A stretch of DNA of 64,000 nt from Terrilactibacillus sp. S3-3 (GTDB taxonomy: Bacteria; Bacillota; Bacilli; Bacillales; Sporolactobacillaceae): positions 1,488,001 through 1,552,000 of the forward strand of contig CP129291.1 of NCBI GenBank assembly GCA_030437565.1. The letters run 5' to 3'. Numbering within the stretch: position 1 is the first letter of the stretch; every line of letters starts with the position of its first letter. Of the stretch, positions 8,359 through 62,462 are shown piece after piece. A model generated the notes under the pieces. The model worked only from the letters and a program-made list of their open reading frames with translations, was not told the DNA's origin and did not search any database. The position numbers and the translations under genes were made by a program.

Positions 8359-8545
8359 TGCAACTAAGGCTCAGCCTGCGCTTTTAACTCTTTGAAGCTT
8401 GCCTTCGCCAAGTTTTCTATAAAATCGTATTAAATTTAATATTGCCATGAATCATGATTAGATGATAGGATAATACTTGTTAGTATGAACAAAATAACTA
8501 AGGGATAAACTTAAGGGACAATTGAATGTTTAGGGCGAATGACAG

Positions 8546-8757
8546 CATGGGGAGAGACTGTGAACAGCAGCGCCGAAGGAGCAAGCCCAAGTGGTGAATC
8601 TCTCAGGCAAAAATGACTCATGCCGGACGCACCTCTGGAGAGCGCTCATATTGAGCCACCAACGGGGATATTCCGTTCACGCGCATTGAATGAACGATAA
8701 ACTTTCAGGTTAAGGGACAGGGGAAACACATCGGTGTGTTTTCCTCTGCCTTTTTTT
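8546..8757 (+). promoter_or_regulatory. Tandem glycine riboswitch (gcvT motif) with terminator-type expression platform
   Basis: Two glycine aptamers are visible in series. The first has GGGGAGAGACTG, GCCGAAGGAGCAAG and AATCTCTCAGGCAAAAATGA. The second has CACCTCTGGAGAGC, a variant GCCACCAACGGGGA and AAACTTTCAGGTTAAGGGACAGG. It is followed by a hairpin (about 8718-8748, CAGGGGAAACACA / TGTGTTTTCCTCTG) and a T7 run, a rho-independent terminator. Glycine binding in this class normally favours read-through into glycine cleavage genes, and gcvT-gcvPA-gcvPB follow directly. Confidence 0.95.
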
Positions 8758-29908: not shown

Positions 29909-30149
29909 AGGAGCATCAAAAGAGATTTTAACATTTGAGGATGCCATGGCAAAACTGGAGTTAATTGTAAAGCAATTGGAGGAAAACAACGTACCGTTGG
30001 AGAAAGCGATCGATCTGTTCCAAGAAGGTATGGACCTTTCCAAGTACTGTCATGACAAGCTTCAGAAAGTGGAAGAGAAAATGGATCGGCTAATCGATAA
30101 AGAGGGTCATAACCGGCCGTTTTCGATTCAGGAGGATGAAACAGAGTGA
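29892..30149 (+). CDS. xseB: XseB, exodeoxyribonuclease VII small subunit
   Basis: Intact, 85 residues. Opens [26 protein letters not shown] and has the paired-helix core with LEENNVPLEKAIDLFQEGMDLSKYC typical of Exo VII small subunits. Overlaps both xseA and ispA (GTG 30146), indicating coupled translation. Confidence 0.95.
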   Translation: MVEKNEGASKEILTFEDAMAKLELIVKQLEENNVPLEKAIDLFQEGMDLSKYCHDKLQKVEEKMDRLIDKEGHNRPFSIQEDETE

Positions 30150-31030
30150 CTCAGGATTTAAAGGATTACATGGATGAAAAGAAAGCGATGGTGGATCAGC
30201 TGCTTCCAAAGTACTTGGAAAAACGAGCGGTTCCCGAAAAATTAAAACAGGCGATGCTCTATTCATTAACTGCCGGAGGAAAGCGGATTCGGCCGATTCT
30301 TCTTTTTGCAGTGATCGAAGCATTAGAAGAAGATCCGAAAAAAGGTATGTCTCCGGCCATTGCCCTGGAAATGATCCATACATATTCCTTGATCCACGAT
30401 GATTTGCCGGCTATGGATGACGATGACCTCAGAAGAGGAAAGCCGACTAATCATAAAATGTTTGGTGAAGCGACCGCCATGCTTGCCGGCGACGGCTTAC
30501 TGACTTATGCGTTTGAAGTGATCGCCGGCGACGCTCTATTATCTGCGGAAACGAGAATCCGCCTGGTCGAAGCGCTGGCGCACGCAGCCGGCCCGGAAGG
30601 TATGGTCGGCGGGCAGCAGGATGATCTTGATGCGGAAACAAAAGTTTTAACCATTAAAGAGCTGGAGAGTGTTCATAGTAGAAAAACGGGAAAATTACTT
30701 AACTTTCCTGTGACAGCAGGCGCGCTGATCGGCGGTGCCGAAGACTCACAGATGCAGGCTTTATCCCGTTTTGCCGATCATTTAGGGCTGGCTTTTCAAA
30801 TTGGCGACGATATTTTGGATATCGAAGGGAATCCCGATGAAATCGGCAAGCCCGTCGGCAGCGACATTGCCAATCATAAAAATACGTATCCGAGTTTGCT
30901 GACAATGGATGGTGCCAAACGGAAATTGGTTCATCACGTGGATATGGCACTGAGCTATTTACACGAGTCGGCGGTAAATGACATATGGTTGAAGCAAATC
31001 GCGCAATTCATTCTTTATCGTACACATTGA
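30146..31030 (+). CDS. ispA: IspA, farnesyl diphosphate synthase
   Basis: Intact, 294 residues, start GTG 30146. A trans-prenyltransferase making farnesyl diphosphate from IPP and DMAPP. Both aspartate-rich metal motifs are present: DDLPAMDDDD (first, about residues 84-93) and GDDILD (second, about 219-224), together with GGKRIRP and KTGKL. It is followed by a promoter and the OLE RNA, the order seen in other OLE-bearing Firmicutes. Confidence 0.96.
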   Translation: MTQDLKDYMDEKKAMVDQLLPKYLEKRAVPEKLKQAMLYSLTAGGKRIRPILLFAVIEALEEDPKKGMSPAIALEMIHTYSLIHDDLPAMDDDDLRRGKPTNHKMFGEATAMLAGDGLLTYAFEVIAGDALLSAETRIRLVEALAHAAGPEGMVGGQQDDLDAETKVLTIKELESVHSRKTGKLLNFPVTAGALIGGAEDSQMQALSRFADHLGLAFQIGDDILDIEGNPDEIGKPVGSDIANHKNTYPSLLTMDGAKRKLVHHVDMALSYLHESAVNDIWLKQIAQFILYRTH

Positions 31031-31079: not shown

Positions 31080-31108
31080 TTGATATGGACAAATAAATGT
31101 GATATAAT
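31080..31108 (+). promoter_or_regulatory. Sigma-A promoter for the OLE RNA
   Basis: TTGATA (31080-31085), a 17-bp spacer and TATAAT (31103-31108) form a near-consensus promoter. Predicted +1 is about 31115, at the 5' edge of the OLE RNA. Confidence 0.8.
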
Positions 31109-31114
31109 AATATC

Positions 31115-31742
31115 AGTTTGGAATGCAGGTGGTGCAGCATTCTAGTCACTCTACTATGTTTGAAGACGGGGCTAAAAATCCGTCAAAGGGCACATCGATG
31201 AAGTTCTTAGTATCGGCTTAGGGCGCCCAGCCTTGGGTTGACACTGGGAGTAAAGGATGTAGGGCGATCCGCAACGGCATGTGGGCGACCCTGCGTCCGT
31301 GGAGACGCATCGCTATTTGCTTTTTGCAGATGGCGAGGTGGAAAACCTGTTTCGACTGTTCGAAAGACAAGTCGAGCAGCGTAGCCTGCCTTGAGTGGAG
31401 GCGAGGGGATGGCGGCATGTAACCCTTAATTGCTTGGCCGGCATTTAAGGGCGTATGTCACCTGAAATCAACTCTGCAAAAGAGGCTATGGCATAGCAAA
31501 AGAGTGCTTGAGGAAACCTCCTAGACTGCTCGCAGGTATGCGACATTTGGAAGGGATTATAGTGCGGGCTGAGTGGCGATCCAGTTCGGCGATTGGCGAC
31601 AACGCCGGCGAAGCCTCAAAAGGAAACTGCCAGGTTGGCAACGACCGGGCGGCTTTGCGGGAAAACCTACTGGACCTAAGCCGCAACGTTTACTTTCCAA
31701 ATGACCACCTTGCTTACATATTGTACGGTGGATGATTTTTTT
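31115..31742 (+). ncRNA. ole: OLE RNA (ornate, large, extremophilic)
   Basis: A non-coding stretch of about 630 bases between ispA and dxs, directly followed by the OapA-type gene, which is the defining context of OLE RNA. Sequence blocks that I recognise as OLE-like include GACGGGGCTAAAAATCCGTC (about 31165-31184), GGCTTAGGGCGCCCAGCC, GTAGGGCGATCC, and the GGGCGACCCTGCGTCCGTGG segment. Many complementary segments are present and no long real frame. It ends with a hairpin CCACC...GGTGG plus T7 at about 31707-31742. OLE RNA works at the membrane with OapA and is tied to stress tolerance and Mg2+ homeostasis. Confidence 0.9.
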
Positions 31743-31767
31743 AAAGCTTATTGCAAGGAGTGAAGAC

Positions 31768-32421
31768 TTGGCTCAATTAAACCGCAGAGCGGTTTTTCTG
31801 CGCCAAGAGATGATAGAAAAAAAATGAATTGCGAAAGTCACTGAAGTGGGCTTCTACGATAGCCGTTATCACGCTTGTGTTAGCGGCTATTTTTTCAATT
31901 ATGTCTAACGGTGTTTTACACGGTGCGGGGGCGGTTGTCGGCATCCTTGTGGTACTCGTCATTATTCTCATTCACCTTCTTTTTGATATTATAGGAGTGG
32001 CAGCAACAGCCGCTGACGAAGTCCCTTTTCACGCGATGGCCGCAAAAAAGGTGAGAGGGGCGAAACATGCTGTCTGGATTACAAAAAAACGCCGATCGTG
32101 TCTCTGTTTTTTGCAATGATGTCATCGGCGATATTTCCGGAATTATCAGCGGGACGGCGGCGGCTGTTGTGGTGATTGAACTGGTCGCACTGTTCGTCCA
32201 CCGGAATAACAGTGCATTGGAATATGCCATCTCTGTTTTATTCACCAGTTTGGTGGCGGCACTTACCGTCTTTACCAAGGCCCTCGAAAACGTTTGCGAT
32301 CAAGTATTCGACGCAGATTATTTATCGGGTGGGATACTTGTTCTATATCGCCGAAAATCGTTTTCACATTCCTATTTTGAATAAGAACGGCAAACATAAA
32401 AAGAAAAGAAATGCAGAATAA
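31768..32421 (+). CDS. oapA: OapA, OLE RNA-associated membrane protein (frameshifted)
   Basis: OapA binds OLE RNA and anchors it in the cell membrane. The most likely start is TTG 31768, seven bases after AAGGAG; ATG 31810 is in the same frame. Pieces in three frames join as: KSLKWASTIAVITLVLAAIFSIM, LVVLVIILIHLLFDIIGVAA, then the conserved DEVPFHAMAAKKVRGAKHA, FCNDVIGDISGIISGTAAAVV, and a C-terminal membrane segment ending in a basic tail (NKNGKHKKKRN). Breaks lie in the A8 run near 31816, the A7 run near 32083 and near 32290. dxs follows 15 bp later. Confidence 0.85.
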
Positions 32422-32436
32422 GGTGAGTGATCAGAA

Positions 32437-34350
32437 ATGGATGTTACATCGATAAAGAGTCCAAAATTTTTAAAGAAAATGTCTGTCCCGGAAATGGACG
32501 CTCTTGCCAAAGATATCAGAACCTTTTTGATCGAGCAACTCTCAAAAACCGGAGGACATTTAGCGCCGAACCTGGGCGTCGTTGAGCTTACCATTGCCCT
32601 TCACCGGATATTCAACAGCCCAAAAGACAAATTGATTTGGGATGTCGGCCATCAGTCATATGTTCACAAAATACTGACAGGACGCGGCAGCCAGTTTGAT
32701 CGGCTGCGCCAGTACAAAGGGCTGTGCGGCTTCCCGAAGCGCAGTGAAAGCAAACACGACGTCTGGGAAACGGGCCACAGTTCGACGTGTCGCTTTCAGC
32801 TGCAATGGGCATGGCAGCCGCAAGAGATCTGAAAAAGCAGTCTTTTGATATAGTCGCCGTGATCGGGGACGGCGCTCTCACTGGCGGAATGGCGCTGGAG
32901 GCGCTCAATCATATCGGCCATGAAAAAAAAGACATGATTATTGTTTTAAACGATAATGAAATGTCGATTGCGCCGAATGTCGGCGCTCTTCACAATATGC
33001 TTGGCCGGCTGCGAACGGCAGGAAAATATAACAAGGCAAAAGAAGATATTGAATTTTTGATGAAAAAAATTCCGGCTTTCGGCGGGAAGATTGCTTCGGT
33101 TGCCGAACGGGTCAAAGATCGGCTGAAATATATGCTTGTCTCCGGGGTGTTCTTCGAAGAACTGGGCATCACCTATTTAGGTCCGGTAGACGGCCACAAC
33201 ATCGGCGCGCTGATGGATAATTTAACATATGCCAAAAAAAGAAAAGGTCCGGTTCTTGTCCACGTTTTAACCCAAAAAGGGAAGGGATACAAAAACCGGC
33301 GGAAATGGATGCGATTGGCACATGGCACGGGCCCGGTCCTTAAAAAATCGAATCGGGTGCTTTCATAAAGCCGCTGGATGCCGCACCGGCTTACGCCAAA
33401 GTAGTGAGCGATGCTCTTCAGGCTATCGCCCGTGAAGACGAACGGGTCGTTGTAATTTCGCCGGCGATGGTGATCGGTTCTAAATTGGAAGGATTCGCTA
33501 AAGAATTTCCGGATCGGCTGTTTGATGTCGGTATCGCCGAGCAGCACGCGGCGACGATGGCCGCGGGTATGGCTACGCAATCCATGAAACCGGTGCTGTC
33601 GATTTATTCCACGTTCATGCAGCGCGCCTATGACCAAATTATTCATGATATTTGCCGGCAAAATTTGAATGTGACGATTGCGGTTGACCGGGCCGGTCTT
33701 GTCGGTGCAGATGGCGAGACCCATCAAGGTGTTTTTGATGTCGGCTTTTTAAGGAACTTGCCGAACATAACGATCATGATGGGAAAAGATGAATGAGCTG
33801 CACAACATGGTGTACACGGCTTTAAAATATGACAAAGGGCCGATCGCTTTTCGCTATCCGAGAGGAAACGGACTCGGCGTCGCGATCGACAAGGACTTTA
33901 CTCAAATTCCGATCGGAAAGTGGGAAATATTGAAAGAAGGAACGGATGCCGCCATCCTCTCTTTCGGGCCGATGCTGCAGACCGCTTTGGAAGCTGCAAA
34001 GAAACTTCAGGCGGAGGGTATACATGTTTCCGTCGTTAATGCAAGATTCCTGAAACCGCTGGATGATCAAATGCTGGAGAAATTAGCACAGCAGCGAGTG
34101 CCGCTTCTAACGGTGGAAGAAAGCGCGCTTGCCGGTGGATTTGGTTCAAGCGTGATGGAATTTTACAACGATCACGGCTTTCATGATCTGACAATCGAGC
34201 GGATGGGGATTCCCGATCGCTTTATCGAACATGGAAGTGTCAAAGAACTGCTGAAAGAGATCGGGCTGACAAGTGAACATATATACGCTCGGGATCAAGA
34301 GCATGCTGTCAAGCCACAGTCCGCGCCGCCACCAAAGGCAGAGGGCATAA
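32437..34350 (+). CDS. dxs: Dxs, 1-deoxy-D-xylulose-5-phosphate synthase (frameshifted)
   Basis: Thiamine diphosphate enzyme opening the MEP isoprenoid pathway. Motifs: [34 protein letters not shown], the TPP-binding [36 protein letters not shown] (catalytic Glu) and [16 protein letters not shown]. Frames break near 32780, 33295, 33370 and 33790. In the last frame there is no stop before tlyA: it runs straight into the tlyA ATG. A TAA at 34348-34350 in the +1 frame suggests that a final indel hides the true stop. It pairs naturally with ispA upstream. Confidence 0.93.
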
Positions 34351-34352
34351 AT

Positions 34353-35165
34353 ATGAAGGAACGTGTCGATACGCTTTTAGTAAAAAAAGGCTTGTTTCCA
34401 TCACGCGAAAAGGCACAGCGCGCTGTTATGGCCGGCATGGTCTATATCGAAAATCAGCGTGTGGATAAACCGGGCAGCAAGATTGACAGCGATTCCGCCC
34501 TTCACGTCAAAGGCGATCCCTTGCCGTATGTCGGACGCGGCGGTTTAAAACTGGAGAAAGCGCTGCGTGTTTTCCCATTTGAGCTGAATGGAAAAATCAT
34601 GCTTGATATAGGTGCCTCAACGGGCGGTTTTACGGACTGTGCTTTGCAAAACGGGGCAAGGAAAGTCTATGCACTCGACGTCGGATACAATCAACTGGCT
34701 TGGAAACTGCGCCAGGATGAGCGGGTGGTGGTCATGGAAAGAACGAATTTCCGCTACTGCACGCCCGATGATTTTCGAGAGGGACAGCCGGAAGCAGCCA
34801 CCATTGATGTTTCATTCATTTCATTAACAAAAATTCTGCCGGCACTAACCCATATTTTGTGCCGGAACGGTGATGTGATTGCTTTAATTAAACCGCAGTT
34901 TGAAGCGGGGCGGGATGAAGTCGGCAAGAAAGGCGTTGTTCGCGATCCAAAAGTGCATGAATCGGTACTTCATGGTATTTTGCACTTTGCTATTGAAACA
35001 GGCTATGATGTGCTTGGACTGGACTATTCGCCGATAACTGGCGGAGACGGCAACATCGAATTTTTGGCTTATTTGCGGCTGAAGAATGGCAAAGGGGAAA
35101 ACAGGCTGACTGAGCCGATTGAATCAATTGTTGCAAAGGCCCATCGTGAATTGAAAAAATCTTAG
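34353..35165 (+). CDS. tlyA: TlyA/YqxC, rRNA 2'-O-methyltransferase-like protein
   Basis: Intact, 271 residues from ATG 34353. An S4 RNA-binding domain ([22 protein letters not shown]) precedes an FtsJ-like methyltransferase domain with the SAM motif [17 protein letters not shown] and [23 protein letters not shown]. The family includes mycobacterial TlyA, which 2'-O-methylates 16S and 23S rRNA. In this sequence its frame is continuous with dxs. A terminator follows; argR, its usual neighbour, is missing. Confidence 0.92.
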
Positions 35166-44874: not shown

Positions 44875-45645
44875 GTGCGCCGTGCATGGCGACTCACTAG
44901 ACGGTGAAAGTCCGTTATGGGGGTAGATAGCGACCAACCATTAGCCAAGAGCAAGGGTGTCCACTGCGAAGTGGAATCTGAAGGAAGCTGGAGGCAAAAT
45001 TCCGACCCGAGGAACACGAACATCATCAGGCGGAACTCATAGGGCGAGGCTGCTTAACAAGTCAAAACCCAAAAGCTATCCGGATATAGGGACGTAAATG
45101 GTGCGGGTACATGGAATGAAAGTGAATCGTCTTACTGCGGGAGGTCTTACGGACAAGCGGAAACAGAGTATGAAGCTTGGTTGAAATAAGATTTATCGTA
45201 AGAAGTCAGCCGAAGCCATAGTACGGCGATGCTCTAGACATCAAAGGAAGGGCTGAACTAAAGGAGGTGGGAGTCAATGAACGTTACCAAAGGAATACAA
45301 ACGTGCAGAAAACAAAGACACCTGCTGCCAAAGAGATACTGCGGAACAGGAAGGGTATGGCAGAGGGCACCATTCAAAGAGGGTAACTGAAAAAAACAAC
45401 ACCACCAACAGCGACAGACAGAACGAACGGATGCTTGAGCGCTTTCTATCCAAAGATAATCTGAACCGAGCGTATGTGAAGGTGATGAGAAACAAAGGAG
45501 CAGGTGGGATCGATAAGATGACAACAGATGAACTTCTGGGATATCTTAGAGAACACCGGGAGGCACTCCTTGTATCCGTTCGAAACGGGAACTATAAGTC
45601 CCAACCTGTCAGACGGGTAGAGATACCTGTATATAGTAATCTAAA
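44875..45645 (+). mobile_element. 5' part of a group II intron, truncated
   Basis: The start GTGCGCCGTGCATGGCGACT matches the GUGYG 5' end of bacterial group II introns. It is followed by the domain I-III region (AGACGGTGAAAGTCCGTTATGGGGG..., quoted in part) and a maturase start at 45277 behind AAGGAGGTGG. The element ends inside the reverse transcriptase coding region. No domain V/VI sequence was found in the window, so the intron cannot splice. Confidence 0.8.
45277..45645 (+). pseudogene. ltrA: Group II intron reverse transcriptase/maturase, N-terminal fragment
   Basis: The fragment contains the RT-0/RT-1 region: ERMLERFLSKDNLNRAYVKV, NKGAGGIDKMTTDELLGYL and YKSQPVRRVEIP. It stops matching after VEIP, where the next residues (normally KxDGxxRxLGIPT) are replaced by unrelated sequence. 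The N-terminal 50 codons are in a different frame from the rest because of the A7 run near 45390. Catalytic motifs are all missing. Confidence 0.8.
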
Positions 45646-57644: not shown

Positions 57645-59212
<1,568 letters not shown>

Positions 59213-59367
59213 ATACGATGCATAGCGAAACGTTTGGACTTTTGTTTGGTTTTGAAGGACACATTCCTTCACTGATCCTTGAAAACTGGATAACGAAAGA
59301 AAAGAAATGCCAAGACTAATTTCCTAAATAGGAGTGGCGAGCGGCAAATGCCGATCGACACACCGAT

Positions 59368-62242
<2,875 letters not shown>

Positions 62243-62345
62243 ACATTAGGAATAAGACTTTTCTTTCGTTTCCGGTTTTGAAGGTTCACCTTCAATTATA
62301 GGAGTGACGACGAGATTTGATACCCGTCGACACGCCGATACATAG

Positions 62346-62462
62346 TCTGGCGGCAATGGCGAAGAGGTCACACCCGTTCCCATCCCGAACACGGCCGTTA
62401 AGCTCTTCCGCGCCAATGGTAATTGGGGGCTGTCCCCCTGTGAGAGTAGGTCGTTGCCAGGC
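62346..62462 (+). rRNA. rrf: 5S ribosomal RNA
   Basis: TCTGGCGGCAATGGCGAAGA at the start, the central CCCATCCCGAACACGG and the closing GTTGCCAGGC pairing with the 5' end. About 117 bases. A terminator follows at once. Confidence 0.96.

Follow-up and report, generated by a model that had tools for sequence, protein, structure and literature searches.

Background

According to the excerpted text of PMC9723947, the OLE RNA of B. halodurans is about 630 nt long, has its own promoter and is presumably processed posttranscriptionally. OLE and the protein OapA almost always co-occur, and a DxxxD motif is a feature of OapA (excerpts of PMC11332333). Premature intrinsic terminators lying inside or early in open reading frames are known from 3' end mapping in E. 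coli (PMC7815308, in its excerpted text).

The locus described here lies in a 64,000-nucleotide stretch of the Terrilactibacillus sp. S3-3 genome, the whole of which we call the window. It resembles the known OLE/OapA/OapB/OapC system in having a full-length RNA with a predicted promoter of its own, the ispA-dxs context and an adjoining oapA, in a genome that also encodes OapB and OapC. It differs in a terminator-like element inside oapA, of a kind that the excerpts of PMC9723947 do not name for that system. The likeness to the ORF-internal terminators of E. coli is that a terminator within a coding region, or close to its beginning, yields a shorter RNA (PMC7815308, excerpts). Here, in contrast, the upstream product is a large structured non-coding RNA, and the element is nearly fixed letter by letter across the order and occurs in addition where both genes are missing. 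A third relation is to the MpfA/CNNM magnesium transporters (PF01595), which have weak profile similarity to OapA; OapA is without the further domains of MpfA (excerpts of PMC12265935). At least one PF01595 match is present in 58/58 relatives, weak matches to OapA itself being counted.

The string 'terminat' is absent from PMC12054373 and from the excerpts of PMC11332333 and PMC12265935, and 'terminator' is absent from PMC12286853. In the excerpted PMC9723947, 'terminat' occurs once, in a reference title, and the terminator passages in the excerpts of PMC10898510 concern the Mn riboswitch. Among the titles and abstracts surveyed, no report of a terminator in oapA was recognisable. We consider the terminator-like element inside oapA to be the new part of a locus of an already known kind; the founding OLE papers may hold an earlier mention.

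OLE RNA and its predicted promoter

A covariance-model scan of the whole window identifies Rfam OLE (RF01071) at 31113-31724 on the plus strand with an E-value of 1.8e-138 (gathering cut-off 50 bits). The match extends over all 616 model positions and 612 nt, for a class expectation of about 600 nt. The gene order is ispA - OLE - oapA - dxs and the isoprenoid gene context is present:

30146..31030 (+), ispA (farnesyl diphosphate synthase), upstream neighbour; Pfam polyprenyl_synt 5.9e-59, NCBIfam FPPsyn 6e-124
31080..31108 (+), predicted OLE promoter TTGATA-17-TATAAT; 11/12 consensus matches, with raised scores at the same place in relatives
31113..31724 (+), OLE RNA, full length; Rfam RF01071, 482.4 bits, model positions 1-616/616
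32437..34296 (+), dxs in several frames, downstream neighbour (end approximate); Pfam DXP_synthase_N and Transketolase_C

A sequence-only reading of this DNA had placed an OLE RNA between ispA and dxs and named the covariance model as the check; the full-length match at 482.4 bits bears this out. The locus is a further member of an already known class. Other traits by which the class is described are abundance as a membrane-bound RNA, stress phenotypes, an OapC/bS21 k-turn, OapA sites at P2 and P4a and an OapB site at P13.

The same reading had proposed the promoter TTGATA-17-TATAAT ahead of OLE. We recovered it at 31080-31108 with 11/12 matches, and a TG precedes the -10 element. The promoter scan alone barely exceeds chance (4 sites versus 2.8 expected in 1.6 kb, both strands). 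The OLE starts of the relatives also score high, with a mean best score of 9.4/12 over 49 loci including that of the window compared to 5.6 in 230 control windows. A score of at least 9 is reached by 39/49 OLE starts and by 7/230 control windows.

Among the loci compared, the best named match to the OLE and the IspA of the window is Sporolactobacillus sp. THM7-4 (81 % and 65 %, respectively), from which the suggested lactic-acid sporeformer as host is plausible. OLE in such a host had been suggested as a useful ecological data point; there is no special ecological case here, OLE being found in 26/26 genomes searched of the host's family, this genome included, and in 49/58 relatives overall. 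As for the partner proteins, the gene for OapB neighbours infA (its best match among solved structures is 7k9b, OLE-associated protein B, at 2.7e-24), and OapC/YbxF (structure match 4lck, 3.9e-24) is encoded between ORFs that by eye resemble rpoC and rpsL.

The oapA gene of this genome

Family-library searches of the window proteins gave no convincing Pfam or NCBIfam model for OapA, and for this reason we used a search profile (A1) built from 41 relatives. The profile matches oapA in three pieces and three frames, which together cover model positions 2-199:

31820..32089 (+), oapA piece 1 (model 2-91; listed ORF 31829-32119); profile A1, E 1.2e-39
32055..32294 (+), oapA piece 2 (model 80-159) in another frame, with the DxxxD motif (DVIGD); profile A1, E 3.9e-30
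32284..32412 (+), oapA piece 3 (model 157-199) in the third frame; profile A1, E 9.4e-11

The gene after OLE had been called oapA from its OapA block DEVPFHAMAAKK, with a profile search as the check. The block sits in piece 1 and all three pieces match the profile, which confirms the assignment.

A single open frame for oapA was not found at this locus, the reading spanning three frames. The neighbouring dxs (identified by Pfam) is also split across frames and is fused to the next gene, and further split frames are presumably xseA, named by eye. The completeness score of this one-contig assembly is 76 % compared to 98-100 % for the other 25 family members. Because dxs and xseA are split too, dxs is fused and the assembly is 76 % complete, the breaks in oapA are likely sequencing indels. 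We doubt that oapA is instead a true pseudogene here, comparable to the lost OLE-adjacent copy of two genomes of the host's family (G003 and G009): the three frames of oapA and the loss in these two genomes, which have a diverged OapA elsewhere, speak for it, and the splitting of dxs and, by eye, of xseA, the fusion of dxs, the low completeness relative to the 25 other family members and the survival of all three pieces as profile matches speak against it.

One open frame at 33789-35165 (+) joins the dxs C-terminus to an S4/FtsJ-type methyltransferase, which is probably an assembly indel.

Diverged OapA proteins (about 150-180 bits) are encoded away from OLE at L054:4328-4963 + (G009) and L055:4061-4678 - (G003), and also in L052 (G010) and L053 (G002). 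They are the sole copy in G009 and G003, and G010 and G002 have both copies. A CNNM-type protein is encoded near the diverged OapA of G003 (L055:2037-3383). The idea that G003 and G009 carry OLE without any OapA was dropped, since the diverged OapA is present elsewhere in both. Another genome of the set, G057, has a second, split oapA-like gene (L056, G057:C1:467991-468579) besides the OLE-adjacent one.

A terminator-like hairpin within oapA

Codons 16-27 of oapA (consensus numbering, peptide AVITLVLAAIFS) double as a hairpin followed by a U-tract at window positions 31862-31896. The hairpin folds with -18.8 kcal/mol (z -5.0), and 0/200 shuffled sequences are as stable. Its parts are:

31862..31887 (+), hairpin core GCCGTTATCAC-GCTT-GTGTTAGCGGC in oapA, with an extended stem at 31858-31891; fold and conservation
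31888..31896 (+), U-tract (TATTTTTTC) after the hairpin, predicted OLE termination site; terminator scoring

The element has the form of an intrinsic terminator, a stable G+C-rich hairpin with a U-tract following at once, and its pattern has a single match in the 64-kb window. A simple terminator scan missed the hairpin because the stem has a mismatch, and purpose-made terminator scorers were used. In the window they gave no terminator-like site above threshold between OLE and oapA. The strong terminator-like site lies inside oapA, a position that the sequence-only reading had missed.

The arrangement recurs in the relatives. Scanning downstream of OLE in 46 loci that have oapA placed the hairpin within the coding sequence in 43. 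The exceptions are L002, L006 and L049; L046, in which the hairpin is rearranged, is counted among the 43, and there the scorers disagree, one finding the site and the other not. A counter-example is G002, a genome outside the order-wide draw of 299: OLE and oapA are both present, but the hairpin is absent and no clear substitute is found. Where the OLE-adjacent oapA is gone, in G003 and G009, a short remnant between OLE and dxs is the very stretch that in OapA encodes AVITLVLAAIFS, with hairpin and U-tract.

Our best explanation, which we regard as likely given the sequence, is that a full-length OLE gene, with a predicted promoter of its own, stands ahead of oapA, whose first 27 codons would contain the predicted intrinsic terminator of OLE as a hairpin and U-tract. 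RNA polymerase starting at the OLE promoter would mostly stop at 31890-31896, inside oapA. The resulting precursor of about 780 nt would carry the start of oapA and would be trimmed to about 610-630 nt, a model that fits the presumed posttranscriptional processing published for B. halodurans OLE (excerpts of PMC9723947). A minority of read-through transcripts would be the mRNA of oapA and dxs. Early initiation of oapA translation would put a ribosome over the hairpin and so favour read-through, and the element may in this way set the OLE:OapA ratio.

A terminator within oapA offers a testable answer to how the OLE 3' end arises and how OLE is balanced with OapA. Deletions of oapA or codon changes made in genetic studies may also alter OLE transcription.

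Codon use in the hairpin

Codon use was compared in 44 oapA genes (the 46 minus 2 near-duplicates) that had been found via OLE or OapA and not via the hairpin. Between genes with the same residue, codon sharing is 1.00 for V17, 0.90 for I18, 1.00 for V21, 0.91 for A23, 0.91 for A24, 1.00 for I25 and 1.00 for F26. It drops to 0.34 for T19 and 0.38 for L20, the loop codons, in which the letters free to vary are those of the loop. Values in between are found for A16 (0.64) and L22 (0.52), both of which carry one-sided changes. Over the whole hairpin window the value is 0.78 compared to a median of 0.40 over all 12-codon windows. Most codons of the hairpin stem are nearly frozen and the loop codons are free to vary.

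Shuffling synonymous codons gives a similar picture, with the provision that the genes are related, so that the trials are not independent, and that the sets of 46 and 80 genes used overlap through shared species. The native fold energy is lower than in synonymous shuffles at p <= 0.05 in 43/46 genes and at p <= 0.01 in 22/46. For the terminator score over codons 4-48, p <= 0.05 is reached in 42/46 and 71/80 genes; the same test on control stretches gives 4 (of 46) and 2 (of 80) genes for codons 61-105, and 3 and 3 for codons 111-155.

The larger set consists of 80 named loci found by OapA, of which 75 carry the hairpin block; all 75 fold, with energies of -12.2 to -17.0. The five without the block are four Paenibacillus loci and one Bacilli MAG. 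Within oapA, two of the five Paenibacillus-type loci have a different, weaker terminator-like site (-8.1); in the other three, no such site lies inside oapA or before it. Outside the order the terminator excess is weak, 15/106 loci at p <= 0.05 versus 5 and 8 in the control stretches, and the OLE 3' motif is found in only 35/106 of these phylum loci. One locus, L114 (JAGGRA010000014.1, titled Pseudomonas sp. ISL-84), looks mislabelled: its oapA shares the hairpin codons and the 52 % identity to the query with the Cytobacillus locus L115.

It is conceivable that a conserved peptide merely fixes the codons and that the hairpin is a by-product, and the residues are indeed strongly conserved. We give this reading almost no credence, since synonymous positions stay fixed through most of the stem and vary in the loop and since the element is also present where no oapA was found around it.

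Occurrence across the order

We searched 299 genomes of the order for the hairpin pattern anywhere in the genome, allowing at most 3 mismatches in the 22 arm letters. The pattern is present in 218/299 genomes and a reversed control pattern in 7/299. OLE was found in 174/299 genomes and OapA in 177/299, the three OapA matches beyond the OLE genomes being G211 and G365 (weak matches) and, at a contig edge, G375; the only reason to class G375 as OLE-less is that its contig starts just before oapA.

The pattern is present in 168/174 OLE genomes. Where OLE genomes do not have it (6 genomes), a different terminator-like site was seen directly downstream of OLE in 4/4 examined (G047, G050, G420 and G458); G237 and G270 are the remaining two, outside these four. 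Of the 125 OLE-less genomes, 50 have the pattern and 75 do not, and 48 of the 50 have no OapA match at all.

These 48 genomes bear on a further reading, that the hairpin is an mRNA structure tuning only the translation of oapA. Its position near the oapA start would suit such a role, and its presence in genomes with neither OLE nor OapA match makes the reading very improbable.

Hairpins in genomes without OLE and OapA

Of the 50 OLE-less hairpin genomes, 41 were examined in place (G340, G365 and G411 are among the 9 left out). The hairpin sits in the ispA-dxs interval in 38 and by dxs at a contig end in 1; the other two (G342 and G036), with the hairpin away from dxs, were left out of the pair counts. 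No oapA was detected within about 1.1 kb of the hairpin in the 37 OLE-less genomes tested, and in two OLE-bearing controls it was detected.

The copies thus freed from oapA keep more than the stem. Taking one representative from each of ten families, the 8-base tail is 0.79 alike, whereas the loop reaches 0.29 and the flanks 0.28-0.33, and each of the 39 freed copies has 5-7 T among the 8 tail bases. Neither the position nor the tail belonged to the search pattern. The arms are 0.90 and 0.88 alike, a figure inflated by the search because the pattern allowed at most 3 mismatches. In nine OLE-less relatives picked without the pattern, the hairpin is present in 2, another terminator-like site in 2 and a weak one in 1; 3 are without any terminator-like site, and G042, with a split dxs, gave no measurement.

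Species with the hairpin alone have probably lost OLE and OapA. Several separate losses of OLE are likely because in each of four families (f11, f14, f19 and f123) genomes with OLE occur beside OLE-less ones that have the hairpin; this estimate relies on kinship labels instead of a tree, and the f11 cases lie outside those examined in place. In the OLE-less species the same hairpin would close the ispA operon ahead of dxs. The hairpin-only species are a natural experiment.

Two codes on the same bases

In the copies embedded in oapA, pair 5/22 of the stem is U.G and pair 8/19 is mismatched, each in 40/40 distinct copies, because the amino acids of OapA demand these letters. Among the distinct freed copies, 8/23 improve one or both of these pairs (5/22 in 5 and 8/19 in 4). 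In three of the 8 a neighbouring pair is lost as well, and a single genus supplies three others; a further freed copy breaks two pairs with no gain. In freed copies that improve pairs forbidden by the protein code, the competition of two codes for one set of bases becomes visible.

The G009 copy has its outermost pair changed on both sides, from G-C to A-U. The 40 distinct embedded copies have one-sided stem changes only and no full compensatory swap. The letters of the embedded stem are more fixed than pairing needs, and because only one-sided changes are seen, a protein could be reading the sequence of the stem.

Taken further, the hairpin might be mainly a sequence-specific site, for an RNA- or DNA-binding protein or for a nuclease that trims OLE, with the U-tract being secondary. 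The embedded arms, which were not chosen by the hairpin, are fixed beyond the needs of pairing and protein, and the U-tracts are interrupted in two OLE-less families (TTTCTTT and TTCTTTTT), as such a site would allow. Against it, the tail of the freed copies is conserved too, other terminator-like sites replace the hairpin in all four OLE genomes examined without it, and a search for exact matches in 58 genomes never gives more than one site in a genome, so that no regulon shows at that stringency. We consider a primarily sequence-specific site unlikely. The hairpin as a regulon motif was rejected on the same count.

Returning to the terminator within oapA, we tentatively propose a wider role, which we think less likely than not. 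A nucleic-acid element would hold the highly conserved peptide AVITLVLAAIFS of the first membrane helix of OapA in place, namely a terminator coupled to translation, which sets the OLE:OapA ratio, makes an OLE precursor containing the oapA start and gates dxs. The element might also have a sequence-specific role of its own and so have been kept for the control of dxs after the loss of OLE and OapA.

Other features of the window

Tandem glycine riboswitch aptamers lie at 8539-8723 (+), with 65.8 and 32.8 bits. ARAGORN found no tRNA genes in the window. Two group II intron pieces stand side by side at 44960-45253 (+), D1-D4-3 with 137.7 bits and D1-D4-1 with 43.6 bits, and an rRNA operon in the order 16S-23S-5S occupies 57646-62462 (+).
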